This document shows positions 11,802 through 16,853 of a stretch of DNA of 64,000 nucleotides, in pieces; the first letter of the stretch is position 1, and each line of letters starts with the position of its first letter. The notes beneath the pieces are model-generated. The model was not told the DNA's origin. It did not search any database and saw nothing but the letters and a program-made list of their open reading frames with translations. Both the position numbers and the translations under genes were made by a program. Location: positions 1 to 64,000 of the forward strand of contig NZ_JNWV01000041.1 in NCBI RefSeq assembly GCF_000716535.1, written 5' to 3'. Source of the stretch: Streptomyces flaveolus (GTDB lineage: Bacteria; Actinomycetota; Actinomycetes; Streptomycetales; Streptomycetaceae).

Positions 11802-12413
11802 TCATTCAGCGTGCCGCGGGAACAACCCCTCCCCCAGCCGCCGGAAGGCCCGCTCCGCCGCCGCCACCGCGTCCGGCGCCACCTCCGCCACCGGCTCCCC
11901 CGCCGCGATCCGCCGCCAGTTCTCCAGGGCGAGGACGCGCTGGACGGCGATGATCTGCCCGGCGGCCAGCCGCGCCTCCAGATCCCCGCCGAGCGCCTCG
12001 GCGAGCGCCGCCTCCGACCGCTCCTGGTGGGCGTAGGCCCGGGCCACCAGGGACGGGGTGCCGTAGAGCAGGCGGTGGAAGGCGAGCACGTCGGGGTGGT
12101 CGTTCAGCCCGGTGACCGGGTCGCGCCGCTCCAGGCCGGCGAGGAAGTGCCGGCGCAGCGCGTCCACCGGGTCGGCCGCCCCGGCGACCACCCGCGCGGC
12201 CTCCGTCTCGTGGTCCGCGATCCGGTGCAGGACCAGGTCCTCCTTGGCCGGGAAGTACCGGAAGAGGGTGGGCTTGGAGATCCCGGCCGCGGCGGCGACC
12301 TCCGCCACGGACACCGCGTCGAAGCCCCGCTCCAGGAACAGCCGTACGGCGATGTCCGACACGTCCTGGTACATCCGCTGCTTCTTGCGCTCGCGCAGGC
12401 CCATCTCACCCAT
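11802..12413 (-). CDS. TetR-family regulator upstream of the helicase
   Basis: A 203-residue protein with a TetR HTH (VRLFLERGFDAVSVAEVAAA, then GISKPTLFRYFPAKEDL) at about residues 20-68, and a ligand domain that contains a TetR_C-type helix bundle. It is transcribed towards the HelD-like helicase with a 50-bp gap. The most economical reading is that it controls itself and the helicase, linking the polymerase-remodelling factor to a small-molecule signal; the ligand is unknown. Confidence 0.8.
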   Translation of the reverse strand: MGEMGLRERKKQRMYQDVSDIAVRLFLERGFDAVSVAEVAAAAGISKPTLFRYFPAKEDLVLHRIADHETEAARVVAGAADPVDALRRHFLAGLERRDPVTGLNDHPDVLAFHRLLYGTPSLVARAYAHQERSEAALAEALGGDLEARLAAGQIIAVQRVLALENWRRIAAGEPVAEVAPDAVAAAERAFRRLGEGLFPRHAE

Positions 12414-12444: not shown

Positions 12445-13476
12445 TCAGTCGCCGGTCCGCGGCGCGGGGAGCGGATCGGCCGGGGCGGGGACCGGATCGG
12501 CAGGCGCGGGGACCGGATCAGCCGGGGCGGGCGCGGGGACCTTCAGGGGGTGGGCGAGGGTCCACAGGGTGTTGAAGAGGACCCGGCGGTCACGGACGGT
12601 CTCCGCCGCCCTCTGCCCGTCGTCCGAGTGCCAGCGAGTCAGCAGCCGCCTGTCGTCCATGACGAGGTCCAGCACCTCCCTGGAGGCCGCGGTCCGGTTC
12701 TGCCGGTCCGCGTTCTTCCTGGGCGTGTAGACGGCCTCGACCAGGCGGTCGGCGTTGATCAGGTACAGGTTGAGCATCGGCGACATGTGGAGCACCCGGA
12801 ATGCGAAGTCCAGCTTCCCCAGACCGTCGTGGCGCATCGAGATCTCCGCATCCCTCAGATGCTCCTGGGACGCGACGATCTTGCCCTTCAGCGCGGCGCG
12901 GAACGCGGGCGCGTCGGCGGCCTTGCCGTCCAGCACCCGCCCGGGAAGCTGGATCTCCTTGTCGAAGTCGGGGACGAGGTAACGGACGGTCACCTCGCGC
13001 TGTGTACTGGCGGGCAGCCGCTCAAGGGCCTTCTTGATCCGGAAGGCGGTGTTCTCCCCGGTGAATCCCATGACGTACAGCTCGACCTTGTCCTTGCCCT
13101 CCAGCTCCCTTTCGATCTCCGCCAGCAGTTGTTCCCTGGTGATGTCCACCCCGGACGCCGAACGCTGCGCCGAACCCAGTTCCACGATCCGCTCGCTCAG
13201 CACCCGGATGCCGTCCCGCAGGTCCTCCGTGGCCTCCCGCTGGGTTTCGTGGGCCGTGTTCAGCCGCTGCACCTCGCTGTAGAGCAGGAAACCGACCAGG
13301 CTCAGCAACGCGCCGCCGATGTAGACGTTGTCCTGCAGGGCGTCGCCGACCGGCCGCACGAACTGGGCGACCAGGTTCAGTCCGAAGACGGCCAGCAGCA
13401 CGATCTTCGAGACCGTGCCCTCGGCCCGCGACCAGCCGGCCGCCACCCTGCTTCTCAGCGTTCTCTCCGCCACCAA
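12445..13476 (-). CDS. Two-TM protein with a cytoplasmic domain related to that of the nearby GntR protein
   Basis: A 343-residue protein of no family I can name. Two hydrophobic helices (KIVLLAVFGLNLVAQFV and YIGGALLSLVGFLLY) lie at about residues 24-68, followed by a helical linker (QRLNTAHETQREATEDL) and a soluble alpha/beta domain (about 115-300). That domain shares an order of motifs with the C-terminal half of the GntR regulator at 15156-16025: a VxVRxLxP strand, FRxLxxxPxxxLYLxN, and a terminal F(N/D)xLW helix. The tail repeats PAPADPVPAPADP. The GTG at 13476 has AGGGGGA upstream. It may sense the same ligand at the membrane; this is inference. Confidence 0.65.
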   Translation of the reverse strand: MVAERTLRSRVAAGWSRAEGTVSKIVLLAVFGLNLVAQFVRPVGDALQDNVYIGGALLSLVGFLLYSEVQRLNTAHETQREATEDLRDGIRVLSERIVELGSAQRSASGVDITREQLLAEIERELEGKDKVELYVMGFTGENTAFRIKKALERLPASTQREVTVRYLVPDFDKEIQLPGRVLDGKAADAPAFRAALKGKIVASQEHLRDAEISMRHDGLGKLDFAFRVLHMSPMLNLYLINADRLVEAVYTPRKNADRQNRTAASREVLDLVMDDRRLLTRWHSDDGQRAAETVRDRRVLFNTLWTLAHPLKVPAPAPADPVPAPADPVPAPADPLPAPRTGD

Positions 13477-13565
13477 ATCCCCCTGTTGGCAGGCGCGTTG
13501 TCACCGTACCGCTCATGGTGCCCGGTCACGGGTCCGCTCAGGAAGAGGGGCGCACCGTACCGGGC

Positions 13566-14297
13566 TCAGCGCGGGATCAGACGCAACAGCCGGTCGTACG
13601 AGGCCAGCACGACCTTCGCCCCGGCGTCGCGCATCCGCTGCCGCTTCGCCGCAGTGCGTCCGATGCCGACGAACCGGACACCCGCCCGCTCGGCCGCCAT
13701 GAAGTCCGTCGGGGTGTCCCCGATCATCACGGCCTCGTCGGGCGGCAGGCCCAGGCCCCGCAGGGCACGATGAAGGACGTCCGGGTGCGGCTTCATCAGG
13801 TCGGGGTCGGCGGCACGGCCGTGCACGGCCTCGAAACTCTCCCGCAGGTTCCTGTCCCGCAGATAGTCGTCCGCCGCCACGGCCGCGTTGTTGGTGACGA
13901 CGGCCAGCCGGGTGCCCCGCCCGGCCAGCCACCTGACGAACTCCGCCGCGCCGGGAGTGGGCCACGCGGTCCGGGCGGCGGTCCGCTCGCCCTCGGTCAC
14001 CTGCTGCTCCAGCCGCGCCACCAGGTCGCCCACGTCATGGTCACGGCGGGCGCGATGCACGGCGCGCAACACCACGTGCGGGTCCTTGTCGGTGCGCTCG
14101 CCCTCGGACAGCACGCCTAGGAGGCCGGCGGCCTCCACGGTGGTCCGCAGGGCGTTCGCCACCGCCATGGAGCTGCCGTCGGGGAACAGTCGGCACAGCG
14201 GACCGTCGAAGTCGAACAACGCGCAGTCCGGGCCGGGCCCGGCGCTCAACAGCTCCCACGCCTCCTCGGCGTCGGCAGCGTCGTACTCAGCAGTCAT
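13566..14297 (-). CDS. HAD-family hydrolase (first of two paralogues)
   Basis: A 243-residue HAD phosphatase with all four motifs: FDFDGP (motif I), VVTNN (II), KPHPD (III) and GDTPTDFMAA (IV). A helical cap lies between motifs I and II. It shares the unusual segment DPHVVLRAV with the neighbouring HAD at 14401, showing that the two are paralogues. The fold suggests a phosphoglycolate-phosphatase-like enzyme acting on a small phosphate ester. ATG at 14297 is chosen because GTGGA precedes it; the frame remains open to 14387. It lies between the second HAD gene and the two-TM gene on the same strand. Confidence 0.8.
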   Translation of the reverse strand: MTAEYDAADAEEAWELLSAGPGPDCALFDFDGPLCRLFPDGSSMAVANALRTTVEAAGLLGVLSEGERTDKDPHVVLRAVHRARRDHDVGDLVARLEQQVTEGERTAARTAWPTPGAAEFVRWLAGRGTRLAVVTNNAAVAADDYLRDRNLRESFEAVHGRAADPDLMKPHPDVLHRALRGLGLPPDEAVMIGDTPTDFMAAERAGVRFVGIGRTAAKRQRMRDAGAKVVLASYDRLLRLIPR

Positions 14298-14400
14298 GCC
14301 GTTCCACCCGCTCCTCGGATCGGTCGCCCGCGCCGGGGACCGCGGACCAGCCTCGGCGGCGCCGGGGACCGGGGCAAGCCCCGACACACCGGTCGGCCGC

Positions 14401-15156
14401 TTATGGCCTACCGTACGGCCGGTGGTGGCGGACCGCGTTCAGCAGTGGCTCCAGCGACCGGACGACGTGCGCGGCGCCTGCCGCTCGCAGGCGTTTCTCC
14501 GCGGTCTCACCATGCGCGTACCCCAGGAACGGCACCCCTGTCTCGCGAGCCGCGGTCAGGTCCGAGACGGCGTCGCCGATCACCAGTGCGGCGGCGGGGA
14601 CGGCACCCATCGCGTGCAGGGCGCGGGTGAGGCAGTGCGGGTGCGGTTCGAGGTGGTGCAGGTCCTCGGTGCGGCCGTACACGTGAGGGGTGAAGCAGCC
14701 GGTGATGCCCCGGGAGTCGAGGTAGGTGCGGACGGCGAGGGGCGAGTTGTCGGTGGTGACGGCGAGGCGGGCGCCGACGGCCGTCCAGGTGCGGATCAGC
14801 GGGTCGGCGTAGGCGGTCGGCAGCGCGGAGGCCGCGGCCCGCACCTCCTCCTGGGTGAGCCGTTCCTCGAGTTCGGCGACGAGGTCGCTGCCGGGCCGCC
14901 GGCGGCCCACGGCCCGCAGGACGACGTGCGGGTCCGGCGTCTCCCGTTCGGTATCGGTGAGCAGCCCGCGCAGGCCGTGCCCCTCCAGCCAGTCCACCAG
15001 GTCGGCGGCCACCTGCTCGGCCCGGTGCCGGGCGAAGAGCCGGCAGATCGGCCCGTCGAAGTCCCACAGCACGAACCGGGCGGATGTGATCAGTTCCCGA
15101 AGCTTCTCGTTCTCGCTCGCAACAGTAGGCGCATCAGAAGTCGCATCAGAGGTCAC
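14401..15156 (-). CDS. HAD-family protein coupled to gntR, with an altered motif III
   Basis: A 251-residue paralogue of the HAD at 13566. Motif I (WDFDGP), motif II (TTDNS) and motif IV (GDAVSDLTAA) are present, but the motif III lysine is replaced: LEPHPH stands where the paralogue has MKPHPD. Activity may therefore be reduced or rely on another residue. Translation starts at a GTG (15156) overlapping the TAG stop of gntR (TAGTG), so the two genes are translationally coupled. This makes a functional link between regulator and HAD protein likely, for example the HAD consuming or producing the regulator's ligand. Confidence 0.75.
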   Translation of the reverse strand: MTSDATSDAPTVASENEKLRELITSARFVLWDFDGPICRLFARHRAEQVAADLVDWLEGHGLRGLLTDTERETPDPHVVLRAVGRRRPGSDLVAELEERLTQEEVRAAASALPTAYADPLIRTWTAVGARLAVTTDNSPLAVRTYLDSRGITGCFTPHVYGRTEDLHHLEPHPHCLTRALHAMGAVPAAALVIGDAVSDLTAARETGVPFLGYAHGETAEKRLRAAGAAHVVRSLEPLLNAVRHHRPYGRP

Positions 15157-16025
15157 TAGGAGAGTGTCAGGTTCGTCGGGATGGTTTCCCAGAGGGCGTC
15201 GAACCACTTCTGCGACTGCTCCACGAACGCCGCGTCCCGCTGCCCGGCCCGCCTCTCGAAGGAGAAGAGCAGGGATGCGGAGCCGAGGACGTCGTACATC
15301 TCCGGCGTCCCGCTGTCGGTGGGCTCCGCGCGGCTCGTGACCACGTAGTACGCGTGCAGCGCCTCCGCGCCGTTGAGCAGGTACAACTTCATCGGCGGGG
15401 TGAACGGCAGCGCACGGAAGGTGACGTGGACGTCGACGTCGTGGGTGCCGCGCAGGGCCTGGAGGTTGTGCCGGAGCACCTGCCCTTGGGCGTTGCGCAT
15501 CGCCAGCCACCGCTGGTGGACGACGTCGTCGCCGCCGGCGTCGACCGCGACCGGTAAGGCGAGGCTGATGTCCCGGGACGGCAGCAGGATGCGGACGTCG
15601 ATCCGCTCCGGTCGCAGCCGGCCCTCGTGGATCCGGCGCAGCGGCTCACCGAGGGCGAGCATCAGGCTCTCCGCGGTCAGGCAGACGGCGTCGATGCGCA
15701 CGTGCGGCGCGGCGAAGGCTTCGGTCAGCCGGGGCGCGAGGGCCACCATGGCCGGCTGCGGCTCCTCGCGCACGGGGCCCGGTTCGACGACCCGGGACGG
15801 GCTGCCCTTCCTGACGTCGCTGAGCAGACCGTCCTCCTGAAGCGCGCGCAGGGCCTGGCGTACGGCGCCCCGCTCCACGCCGAACTCCTCGGCCAGCTCG
15901 GCCTGGGTGGGCATCCGGTCACCGGCACGGAGGGCGCCGGACCGGATGCGTTCGCGCAGGATGTCGGCCACCTCCCGCGGAGTGAGCCGCCCGCCGCCGT
16001 GCGCTGCCGTCCGCTCCTCGGTCAC
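15156..16025 (-). CDS. GntR-type regulator with an uncharacterised C-terminal sensor domain (TTA codon)
   Basis: A 289-residue protein. The N-terminal winged helix (about 15-80) reads ADILRERIRSGALRAGDRMP then ELAEEFGVERGAVRQAL. The C-terminal domain (about 108-285) is not the usual FadR or UTRA type; it resembles the soluble domain of the two-TM protein at 12445. Codon 157 is TTA (forward 15555-15557), the only TTA in the gene, making translation dependent on the bldA tRNA and hence tied to development. The start is a GTG with no obvious SD, and CAACTA/TAGTTG inverted repeats lie just upstream. The stop overlaps the start of the following HAD gene. Confidence 0.75.
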   Translation of the reverse strand: MTEERTAAHGGGRLTPREVADILRERIRSGALRAGDRMPTQAELAEEFGVERGAVRQALRALQEDGLLSDVRKGSPSRVVEPGPVREEPQPAMVALAPRLTEAFAAPHVRIDAVCLTAESLMLALGEPLRRIHEGRLRPERIDVRILLPSRDISLALPVAVDAGGDDVVHQRWLAMRNAQGQVLRHNLQALRGTHDVDVHVTFRALPFTPPMKLYLLNGAEALHAYYVVTSRAEPTDSGTPEMYDVLGSASLLFSFERRAGQRDAAFVEQSQKWFDALWETIPTNLTLS

Positions 16026-16037
16026 GGACGAACGCTA

Positions 16038-16064
16038 CAACTACGGTCAGACAAGCGATAGTTG
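16038..16064. promoter_or_regulatory. Candidate operator upstream of gntR
   Basis: CAACTA (16038-16043) and TAGTTG (16059-16064) form a perfect 6-bp inverted repeat with a 15-bp spacer, 13 bp before the GTG start of the GntR gene. The position fits autoregulation. Confidence 0.4.
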
Positions 16065-16090: not shown

Positions 16091-16693
16091 TCACATCAAC
16101 AGATCGTCCACCTGGGCCTCGCCCACCCGGTACCGGCGGGCGATCTCCCCGCTGCAGTCGTCGGCTGTACGCTGCAACCGCTGGCGGCGCCGCGAGACCT
16201 CCTGCTCGTAGCGGATCAACCGGCCCATGGCGGCGCTCAGTTCCAGATCCGTACGCGCCGTCAGGTCGGACAGCTCCACCTCGGCGAGCATCTCGGCGGC
16301 CAGTTGCCCGTACTCCTCGTTGTGCGGGGTGCCGAGCGTGACATGCCGGGCCGAGGAGCGCTGCCGGGCCGGGGCGTCCTTCAGGATCTCCGGGAGCCGG
16401 TCGACCACGGAGCCGTCCGCGGGCGCCGGAACGGACGCCCGGCCGCGCCGGCCCAGCTCCGCACGCAGGATGTCGATCCGCCCCTGGAGCAGCCGCCGCA
16501 CATAGCTCAGGTCCGCCTCGTCGCGCTGGGCGTCCCGGCGCAGGGTGCGCAGCTCGGGCAGGCTCAGCCGGGCCAGGTCGGGCTCCGGGGGCTCGACGGG
16601 CAGGGCGGGGCCCGTGGTGCCGTCGGCGCGCTGGGCGGGCGGCCGGTACGTCCCCTGCGTCCCCAGCCGCCCGCTGGTACTCGGTGTGCTCAT
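16091..16693 (-). CDS. rsiG: RsiG, c-di-GMP-dependent anti-sigma factor
   Basis: A 200-residue cytoplasmic protein. It carries both copies of the c-di-GMP-binding motif E(X)3S(X)2R(X)3Q(X)3D that defines RsiG: E59-S63-R66-Q70-D74 and E163-S167-R170-Q174-D178, each on a predicted long helix. In Streptomyces, RsiG loaded with a c-di-GMP dimer binds and holds the sporulation sigma factor WhiG, releasing it when the second messenger falls. The Pro/Gly-rich N-terminal 40 residues look disordered. The start is ATG 16693, 13 bp after GAGGGGA; the frame is open further to 16756 without support. No sigma gene is adjacent. Confidence 0.9.
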   Translation of the reverse strand: MSTPSTSGRLGTQGTYRPPAQRADGTTGPALPVEPPEPDLARLSLPELRTLRRDAQRDEADLSYVRRLLQGRIDILRAELGRRGRASVPAPADGSVVDRLPEILKDAPARQRSSARHVTLGTPHNEEYGQLAAEMLAEVELSDLTARTDLELSAAMGRLIRYEQEVSRRRQRLQRTADDCSGEIARRYRVGEAQVDDLLM

Positions 16694-16853
16694 CTGCTTG
16701 TGACCGTCCCCTCGACCGGCGTGGTGGAAGCATCGTGCCACCCCAACCGGCCGCAATGTGACCGAGTGCCCCCGAACATCCCCAGATGGGCGGTAAGAGA
16801 TCCATAGTGAACCCCGTGCGGGCTAGTGCGGGACACCGGGCATGATGGTCCGC

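Follow-up and report, generated by a model that had tools for sequence, protein, structure and literature searches.

The analysis concerns a 64,000-nucleotide stretch of Streptomyces flaveolus DNA (contig NZ_JNWV01000041.1, positions 1 to 64,000; the window), and within it a locus encoding a GntR-type regulator, two HAD proteins and a protein with two transmembrane helices (the two-TM protein). The features are collected in Table 1. All four open reading frames (ORFs) lie on the minus strand where an earlier sequence-only reading had placed them, and the G+C content of the locus DNA is 71–73%. As that reading proposed, HAD2 is translationally coupled to the GntR gene, with the stop codon TAG (15158–15156) and the start codon GTG (15156–15154) sharing one base in a TAGTG overlap, and the proposed paralogy of HAD1 and HAD2 is upheld by 40% identity over 236 amino acid residues. 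For the two-TM gene GTG 13473 is a more probable start than TTG 13476, as judged from a 342-residue record of the protein that begins at the GTG, and for HAD1 an alternative GTG start at 14387 is possible. An Rfam search and scans for promoters and terminators gave no match.

Table 1. Features of the locus, in window coordinates, with the divergent membrane proteins of three other loci in the last row (locus designation before each range).
Feature	Position	Strand	Basis or remark
GntR regulator, DevA orthologue by sequence comparison, 289 residues	15156..16025	-	PF00392 E 4.3e-17, residues 17-74
DevA C-terminal predicted pseudo-phospholipase-D domain, residues 96-281	15183..15740	-	homology to two-TM domain and AF2 model
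Operator-like inverted repeat CAACT-N17-AGTTG, closely 5' of the DevA start	16038..16064	-	right arm extends into TAGCGT
HAD2, DevB orthologue by sequence comparison	14401..15156	-	PF00702 E 3.7e-12; motif-III Lys replaced by Glu
HAD1, second HAD, motifs intact	13566..14297	-	PF13419 E 3.9e-21; ATG start
Two-TM protein with DevA-type domain, 342 residues	12445..13473	-	
Membrane hairpin of two-TM protein, about residues 21-70	13267..13416	-	helices in structure model
Two-TM predicted pseudo-phospholipase-D domain, residues 110-312	12541..13149	-	
rsiG, anti-sigma gene, conserved flank	16091..16756	-	PF22802 E 1.7e-33
TetR regulator, conserved flank	11802..12413	-	PF00440 E 4.2e-17
Third-type two-TM proteins	L160:8535-9590, L161:8427-9494, L162:5518-6507	opposed to devA	each behind a HAD gene

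The GntR gene and its coupled HAD gene belong to a system already described. According to the accessible part of PMC3187754, devA (SCO4190) of S. coelicolor encodes a GntR protein that represses itself and devB, the gene for a putative phosphatase, the devA gene has a duplicate, devE, mutants in devA, devE and devB show developmental defects, and the metabolite sensed by DevA and DevE was left open in that 2011 paper. The ends of S. coelicolor devA were taken from the deletion oligonucleotide printed in its methods: the 3' part matches the window at 32 of 32 nucleotides, at the 3' end of devA, and a 40-nucleotide piece of the 5' part matches the DNA upstream of the DevA-type gene of locus L038 (Streptomyces sp. 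AC512_CC834) at 40 of 40 positions and the window at 24 of 40. The window GntR shares 69% identity with the DevA-type protein of L038 (GntA) and 60% with the adjoining DevE-type protein, and in a tree of 69 domains it groups with the DevA-type rows; the DevA branch is weak (support 69/30) and that of DevA plus DevE stands at 100/99. It has the winged helix-turn-helix (HTH) of GntR regulators and, by these matches, a DevA-type C-terminal domain, and the stop/start overlap and HAD family of the following gene mark this as devB. By these comparisons the window GntR is the DevA orthologue and HAD2 is DevB, and the description of the whole locus as undescribed fails for this half. DevA is the one regulator of its kind in the window genome; the 31 matches to the DevA query are DevA itself, the two-TM gene and 29 others, the latter confined to residues 8–111 at the HTH end.

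The C-terminal domain of DevA and the soluble domain of the two-TM protein are homologous beyond chance. They share 26% identity over 179 residues in a single BLASTP comparison (E=1e-7), and profiles built separately from 51 two-TM and 64 GntR proteins align over 191 columns (hhalign, E=1e-24, probability 99.6), so that the shared domain suspected beforehand is confirmed, together with the order of motifs common to both proteins (VTVRYLVP and VDVRILLP, then FRVLHMSPMLNLYLIN and FRALPFTPPMKLYLLN, and a terminal LW). Structure models of the two domains have their main elements in equal order, with three additional short strands in the two-TM model, and the predicted topologies match. Apart from its HTH the GntR protein has no Pfam or NCBIfam family, and the two-TM protein has no credible family in Pfam, NCBIfam or PADLOC. 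Among solved structures a sequence search with the two-TM protein gave nothing up to E 5, and its profile a single match at E 0.86; the GntR matches centre on the HTH and reach residue 133 at most, and those of the GntR profile reach profile position 121 at most among the best 60 of 86. In Foldseek searches the GntR model matched TrmBL2 (4.7e-5), SauUSI (1.4e-4) and MITD1 (8.9e-4), most other matches being to the HTH.

A new result here is that this unnamed domain is predicted to have the fold of the phospholipase D (PLD) superfamily without its catalytic histidine. The catalytic HxKx4D (HKD) motif is absent, and a pseudo-HKD pattern fits 49 of 50 two-TM and 159 of 178 GntR proteins (1 and 19 do not fit). 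Among those with the pattern the lysine is present in 45 of 49 and 159 of 159, respectively, asparagine replaces the aspartate in 44 of 49 and 157 of 159, and no histidine is found two residues before the lysine in any of the 49 and 159 domains. The aligned residues thus point to a degenerate active site, with the lysine kept, no histidine found and aspartate changed to asparagine. Among 22 domains of both kinds Arg 145 of DevA does not vary, and conservation of Arg 204 is 90% or more. In the tree of 69 domains the two-TM and GntR domains lie on separate sides of a branch with support 100/99; the tree is unrooted and long branches meet there, and this arrangement does not contradict a single origin of the two-TM domains. 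A profile of the domain matches 8 of 246 genomes in a sample of the phylum, seven of the window's genus and G294, in which a GntR gene in two pieces adjoins a HAD gene. A second type of GntR protein with the shared domain occurs in loci L029–L031, L034, L035 and L153, followed by a DevB-like HAD in L034 and L153; no kinase was found in L133, the only larger locus checked among L029–L031, L034 and L035.

Comparison across relatives adds a kinase to this picture. When named genomes were scanned with the two-TM alignment, 53 loci emerged, of which one is titled 'Actinobacteria bacterium OK074' and the other 52 Streptomyces, and in 46 of the 53 the two-TM gene occurs together with devA/devE-type GntR genes, so that the co-occurrence on which the sequence-only reading depended is found. 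The usual gene order is rsiG, devE, devA, devB, (third GntR), kinase, two-TM, tetR and helD. An APH-fold kinase (PF01636) is present in 45 of the 46 loci and the third GntR in 33. In L046 the kinase has two APH stretches, and at L044:7754-9889 and L043:8076-9926 a single ORF combines the kinase with a HAD; to judge from its two parts such a chain could both add and remove phosphate. Twenty further stretches were taken from genomes with GntR-type matches. Of these, 19 contain a devA-type locus but no two-TM gene, and the kinase is present in every one of the 19 (the twentieth, L133, has the other GntR type and no kinase). The core of the system is therefore GntR, HAD and kinase, and the two-TM gene is optional. 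The HxDxxxxN motif is present in 68 of 70 kinase ORFs and the motif-III lysine in 76 of 77 aligned HADs. Our search of titles and the starts of abstracts, which covered little of the subscription literature, found no paper on the kinase, the fold, the two-TM protein or the repeat described below.

Neighbour genes were labelled by homology to the window genes and the kinases only. A HAD gene lies directly 5' of the two-TM gene in L036, L037, L041, L149 and L151 too, tetR follows the cassette wherever the locus extends that far, usually with HelD, and in 54 of 66 loci rsiG is found upstream of devA/devE at a distance of no more than 6.5 kb, the remaining 12 being cut off there. The rsiG product is described as a cyclic di-GMP-dependent anti-sigma factor, and two developmental control genes are thus kept side by side. 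Loci L116 and L122 each carry three devA/devE-type GntR genes in tandem. Between devB and tetR the gene content is highly variable among the 53 of 74 loci that were classed (the remaining 21 lacked flanks or genes needed for this). Because of this variety, and because similar flanks carry different types of two-TM gene (see below), the stretch appears from its gene content to behave as an exchangeable cassette.

A second feature of the devA loci is an operator-like repeat. At most devA/devE ORF starts the sequence AGTTGTAGCGTT, allowing up to two changes, is present no further than about 20 bases away and forms the right arm of the inverted repeat CAACT-N17-AGTTG. The arms are most often 17 bases apart (89 exact cases among 74 loci), and spacings of 6, 7, 27 and 28 recur too. 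The shorter form AACT-N17-AGTT occurs at 121 of 131 devA/devE starts, 4 of 47 third-GntR starts, none of 70 kinase starts and 7 of 77 HAD starts, the last probably ORFs that extend upstream over devA. In the part of the S. coelicolor devA upstream DNA given in PMC3187754, the arms and spacing equal those of the window, and a repeat so placed at the devA promoter would be consistent with the negative autoregulation of devA and devB published there. The window genome contains CAACT-N17-AGTTG 40 times and the reversed pattern twice (about a 20-fold difference), with 2 occurrences at spacing 20 and 7 at spacing 18, and the excess is real. A genome-wide check covered ten of the 40 sites (the other 29 besides the window's own lay outside it): eight lie in a reading frame whose G+C content at third codon positions (GC3) is at least 0.90, and seven of the eight read QL-x5-(E/Q)L. 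We therefore rejected the repeat as a marker of a genome-wide regulon, leucine-heptad coding explaining most of the sites examined, and it is informative only together with its position.

The membrane protein is more sparsely distributed. A model of the hairpin only has matches in 27 of the 246 genomes of the genus, this genome included (some matches lie in short frames, and the count therefore takes in broken copies), and in 4 of 296 genomes in a sample of the class, all of this genus. In three of the 27 (G016, G216 and G219) a third, divergent two-TM type is encoded at the devA locus, opposite to devA and after a HAD gene. Searched with the single sequence, the two-TM domain finds 2 proteins, and with the family alignment 217, so that the impression of a protein nearly unique to this strain was discarded; none of the 120 listed among these 217 has a Pfam domain, the visible names being 'hypothetical protein', 'ATP/GTP-binding protein' and 'uncharacterized membrane protein'. 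The basic residues before the first helix suggest an N-in/C-in topology. Among six loci with a stand-alone two-TM gene that were inspected, two (L076 and L077) have putative transposase ORFs within about 2 kb, which suggests mobility outside the devA locus.

The two parts of this protein differ in conservation. Between the window and L149, residues 1–80 are 91% identical, with a ratio of nonsynonymous to synonymous change (dN/dS) of 0.19, and residues 111–312 are 43% identical, with a ratio of 1.32 (Nei-Gojobori). The neighbouring genes give values between 0.23 and 0.43, with the GntR protein at 78% identity (0.38), the HADs at 71 and 76% (0.35 and 0.43), RsiG at 83% (0.38), and TetR and HelD at 93 and 86% (0.23 each). 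The hairpin is by these alignments the best conserved part of the two-TM protein. The high domain ratio needs care, as the proportion of synonymous differences (pS) plateaus near 0.55 in this family and is depressed by GC3 bias. Of the four-fold sites in the two-TM protein, 23 of 72 differ from residue 101 on and 8 of 42 in residues 1–75, against 26 of 122 in TetR, HAD1 being left out of this comparison; a two-state GC3 correction made by hand arithmetic brings the domain ratio to about 1. The true value may be near 1, with G+C bias holding synonymous change down, and replacement by recombination is a possible source of the divergence; positive selection as its sole reading was not accepted, given the plateau and the bias. 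Other close pairs of one two-TM type have a domain pN/pS (pN, the nonsynonymous counterpart of pS) of 0.17–0.58, and the excess is thus peculiar to the branch of the window and to pairs of differing type. L041 differs in two-TM type from L050, L063, L066 and L069 with similar flanks, pS being 0.24–0.31 for GntA, 0.25–0.26 for HelD and 0.44–0.54 for the domain.

One rival reading takes the protein as a fast-changing sensor on a fixed hairpin, part of a module for competition or something like defence that would act on the membrane once a trigger arrives and that has been moved around as a cassette beside devA. The contrast of domain and hairpin against six steadier neighbours, the exchange of two-TM types between similar flanks, the patchy spread and the putative transposases are all in keeping with such a module. 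We nevertheless think it improbable: there is no credible PADLOC match among the four proteins, the usual site is a developmental locus with a kinase and a phosphatase as partners, the corrected ratio is about 1, and replacement by recombination would also account for the divergence. The strong constraint on the hairpin also speaks for a different proposal, in which the two-TM protein would be a membrane anchor for DevA or DevE, the domains pairing and the repressor being held at the membrane with or without a ligand. One domain in two proteins of a single locus would suit an anchor, as would the behaviour of single-lobe PLD relatives of the Nuc type, which function as dimers. We consider this unlikely, if somewhat less so than a defence role, since two-TM genes occur without devA in 7 of the 53 fetched stretches (of which L040 and L076 reach less than 2 kb upstream), and the 100/99 branch between two-TM and GntR domains and the 22–26% identity of the window pair do not suggest a mixed interface that has been kept.

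The window carries a reduced version of the locus. It lacks devE, the third GntR and the kinase, and the kinase query, which found its target in three control genomes, had no match in the window genome, in G242 or in G484 (the genome of L036). The set found here between devB and tetR (a HAD and two-TM gene, no kinase) is rare, occurring in 2 of the 53 classed loci, the window and L036; L149, outside that classing, has the same gene set, and both L036 and L149 have devE. The window DevB has glutamate for the motif-III lysine, as the only one of 77 aligned HADs, and keeps motifs I, II and IV, so that the set of four phosphatase motifs is incomplete and the enzyme is probably impaired or altered, as far as the motifs can tell; in HAD1 all four are present. 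One could take the loss of kinase and devE, the altered DevB and a drifting two-TM domain as a unit in decay, of which the membrane part has no function now, and the single DevA-like GntR, the missing kinase, the lysine-to-glutamate change and a domain dN/dS of about 1 or above would agree with that. It seems to us a poor fit, however, with four frames that are all open, with the constraint on the hairpin and HAD1 (0.19 and 0.43), with the retention of the domain's conserved residues (Arg, Pro, Tyr, Asp and Trp), and with the persistence of the kinase-less form in two relatives, L036 and L149. We would rather regard the branch as reduced in this strain, with kinase and devE gone and DevB seemingly impaired, and with HAD1 as the remaining HAD with intact motifs.

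The interpretation that we prefer, and to which we give about an even chance, is that a single phospho-ligand is sensed in the cytoplasm by DevA and at the membrane by the two-TM protein. The locus would be the DevA/DevB developmental locus to which a membrane-anchored relative of the DevA effector domain has been added, DevA combining a GntR winged helix with a PLD-fold domain and the two-TM protein a hairpin and helix with the equivalent domain. The pseudo-PLD domain would no longer cleave, and its former active site would bind a small ligand, phosphorylated or anionic, by analogy with sugar binding by the PLD-fold domain of TrmB. In most relatives the APH-fold kinase and the HAD phosphatases would make and remove this ligand; DevA, on CAACT-N17-AGTTG over its own promoter, would repress devAB depending on the ligand, and the two-TM protein would read the common ligand on the inner side of the membrane, passing the signal on by self-assembly or by pairing with DevA. 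The link to a phosphorylated ligand, suggested earlier from the HADs, is plausible and is strengthened by the kinase in the 45 of 46 and 19 of 19 devA loci; the window itself lacks the kinase.

Several observations weigh against this interpretation. The whole-model Foldseek TM-scores are low (0.19–0.31, with root mean square deviations mostly above 6 Å), and for the GntR model the VIA table tests its HTH only. The window two-TM protein has asparagine, not lysine, at the pseudo-HKD position, and the low identity of the two window domains means that their ligands may differ. The two-TM gene has a scattered distribution (27 of 246), and in the seven stretches mentioned it occurs apart from devA, so that DevA does not need the two-TM protein; AACT-N17-AGTT is found at none of 55 two-TM starts, and the gene is thus not obviously under DevA; and the kinase query found nothing in this genome. 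A wider formulation we offer tentatively, as a possibility that we doubt: the devA locus would encode a signalling module so far overlooked, in which kinase and HADs would set the level of a phosphorylated signal read by pseudo-PLD domains on a repressor and on a membrane hairpin. The stretch from devB to the TetR/HelD flank would be an exchangeable cassette that shuffles kinases, HADs, a third GntR and membrane readers of three types, and the sensor domain could change far faster than the hairpin, as if diversifying selection acted on its specificity for ligand or partner.

What was known beforehand, from the genetics in PMC3187754 as far as accessible, is the regulator and the phosphatase; the predicted PLD fold, the conserved kinase, the putative membrane reader and the devA/devE repeat are new here. 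Of the 65 related devA loci examined, 64 have a kinase gene beside that of the DevB phosphatase (45 of 46 plus 19 of 19). Fold, kinase and membrane copy together would narrow the search for the DevA/DevE ligand to small compounds of a phosphorylated or phosphodiester-like kind, and candidate enzymes for making and destroying the signal are thereby named. The findings would also add a GntR sub-type with a TrmB-like effector domain, and a membrane reader that is unnamed in the libraries searched (Pfam, NCBIfam and PADLOC).

Among known systems, CBASS-like defence includes nucleotide-triggered two-TM effectors with a sensor domain, and the two-TM protein has the two helices and a sensor domain in common with these. 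The analogy to defence effectors drawn earlier is unsupported: in PADLOC two of the four proteins have no match, the GntR has four (best E 0.0018) and HAD2 one (0.046), none fits a known defence model, and the neighbours are a kinase, phosphatase and regulators; no cyclase is among the partners identified at devA loci, although no search aimed at cyclases was made. The PLD-like domains of MITD1 and FAM83, which are non-catalytic, are alike in predicted fold; they are eukaryotic and are not known to be fused to a DNA-binding domain or to such a membrane hairpin. The single-lobe phospholipase D nucleases Nuc and NucT differ from the window-type domains in that the latter lack the catalytic histidine (49 and 159 with the motif). 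TrmB and TrmBL2 are archaeal regulators with a PLD-fold effector domain; here the DNA-binding part is of the GntR family instead and a membrane-anchored form exists, and PF11495, given as the TrmB effector domain in the accessible part of PMC4158304, is not among the Pfam matches up to E 1 of either protein. In the DevA/DevB/DevE system of S. coelicolor, the accessible text of PMC3187754 gives no fold for the C-terminal domain of DevA, and the words kinase, phosphotransferase, membrane and operator do not appear in it. As in that system, the window has a GntR gene followed by a coupled HAD gene (devB), and it differs in being without devE and in having an additional HAD gene and the two-TM gene.

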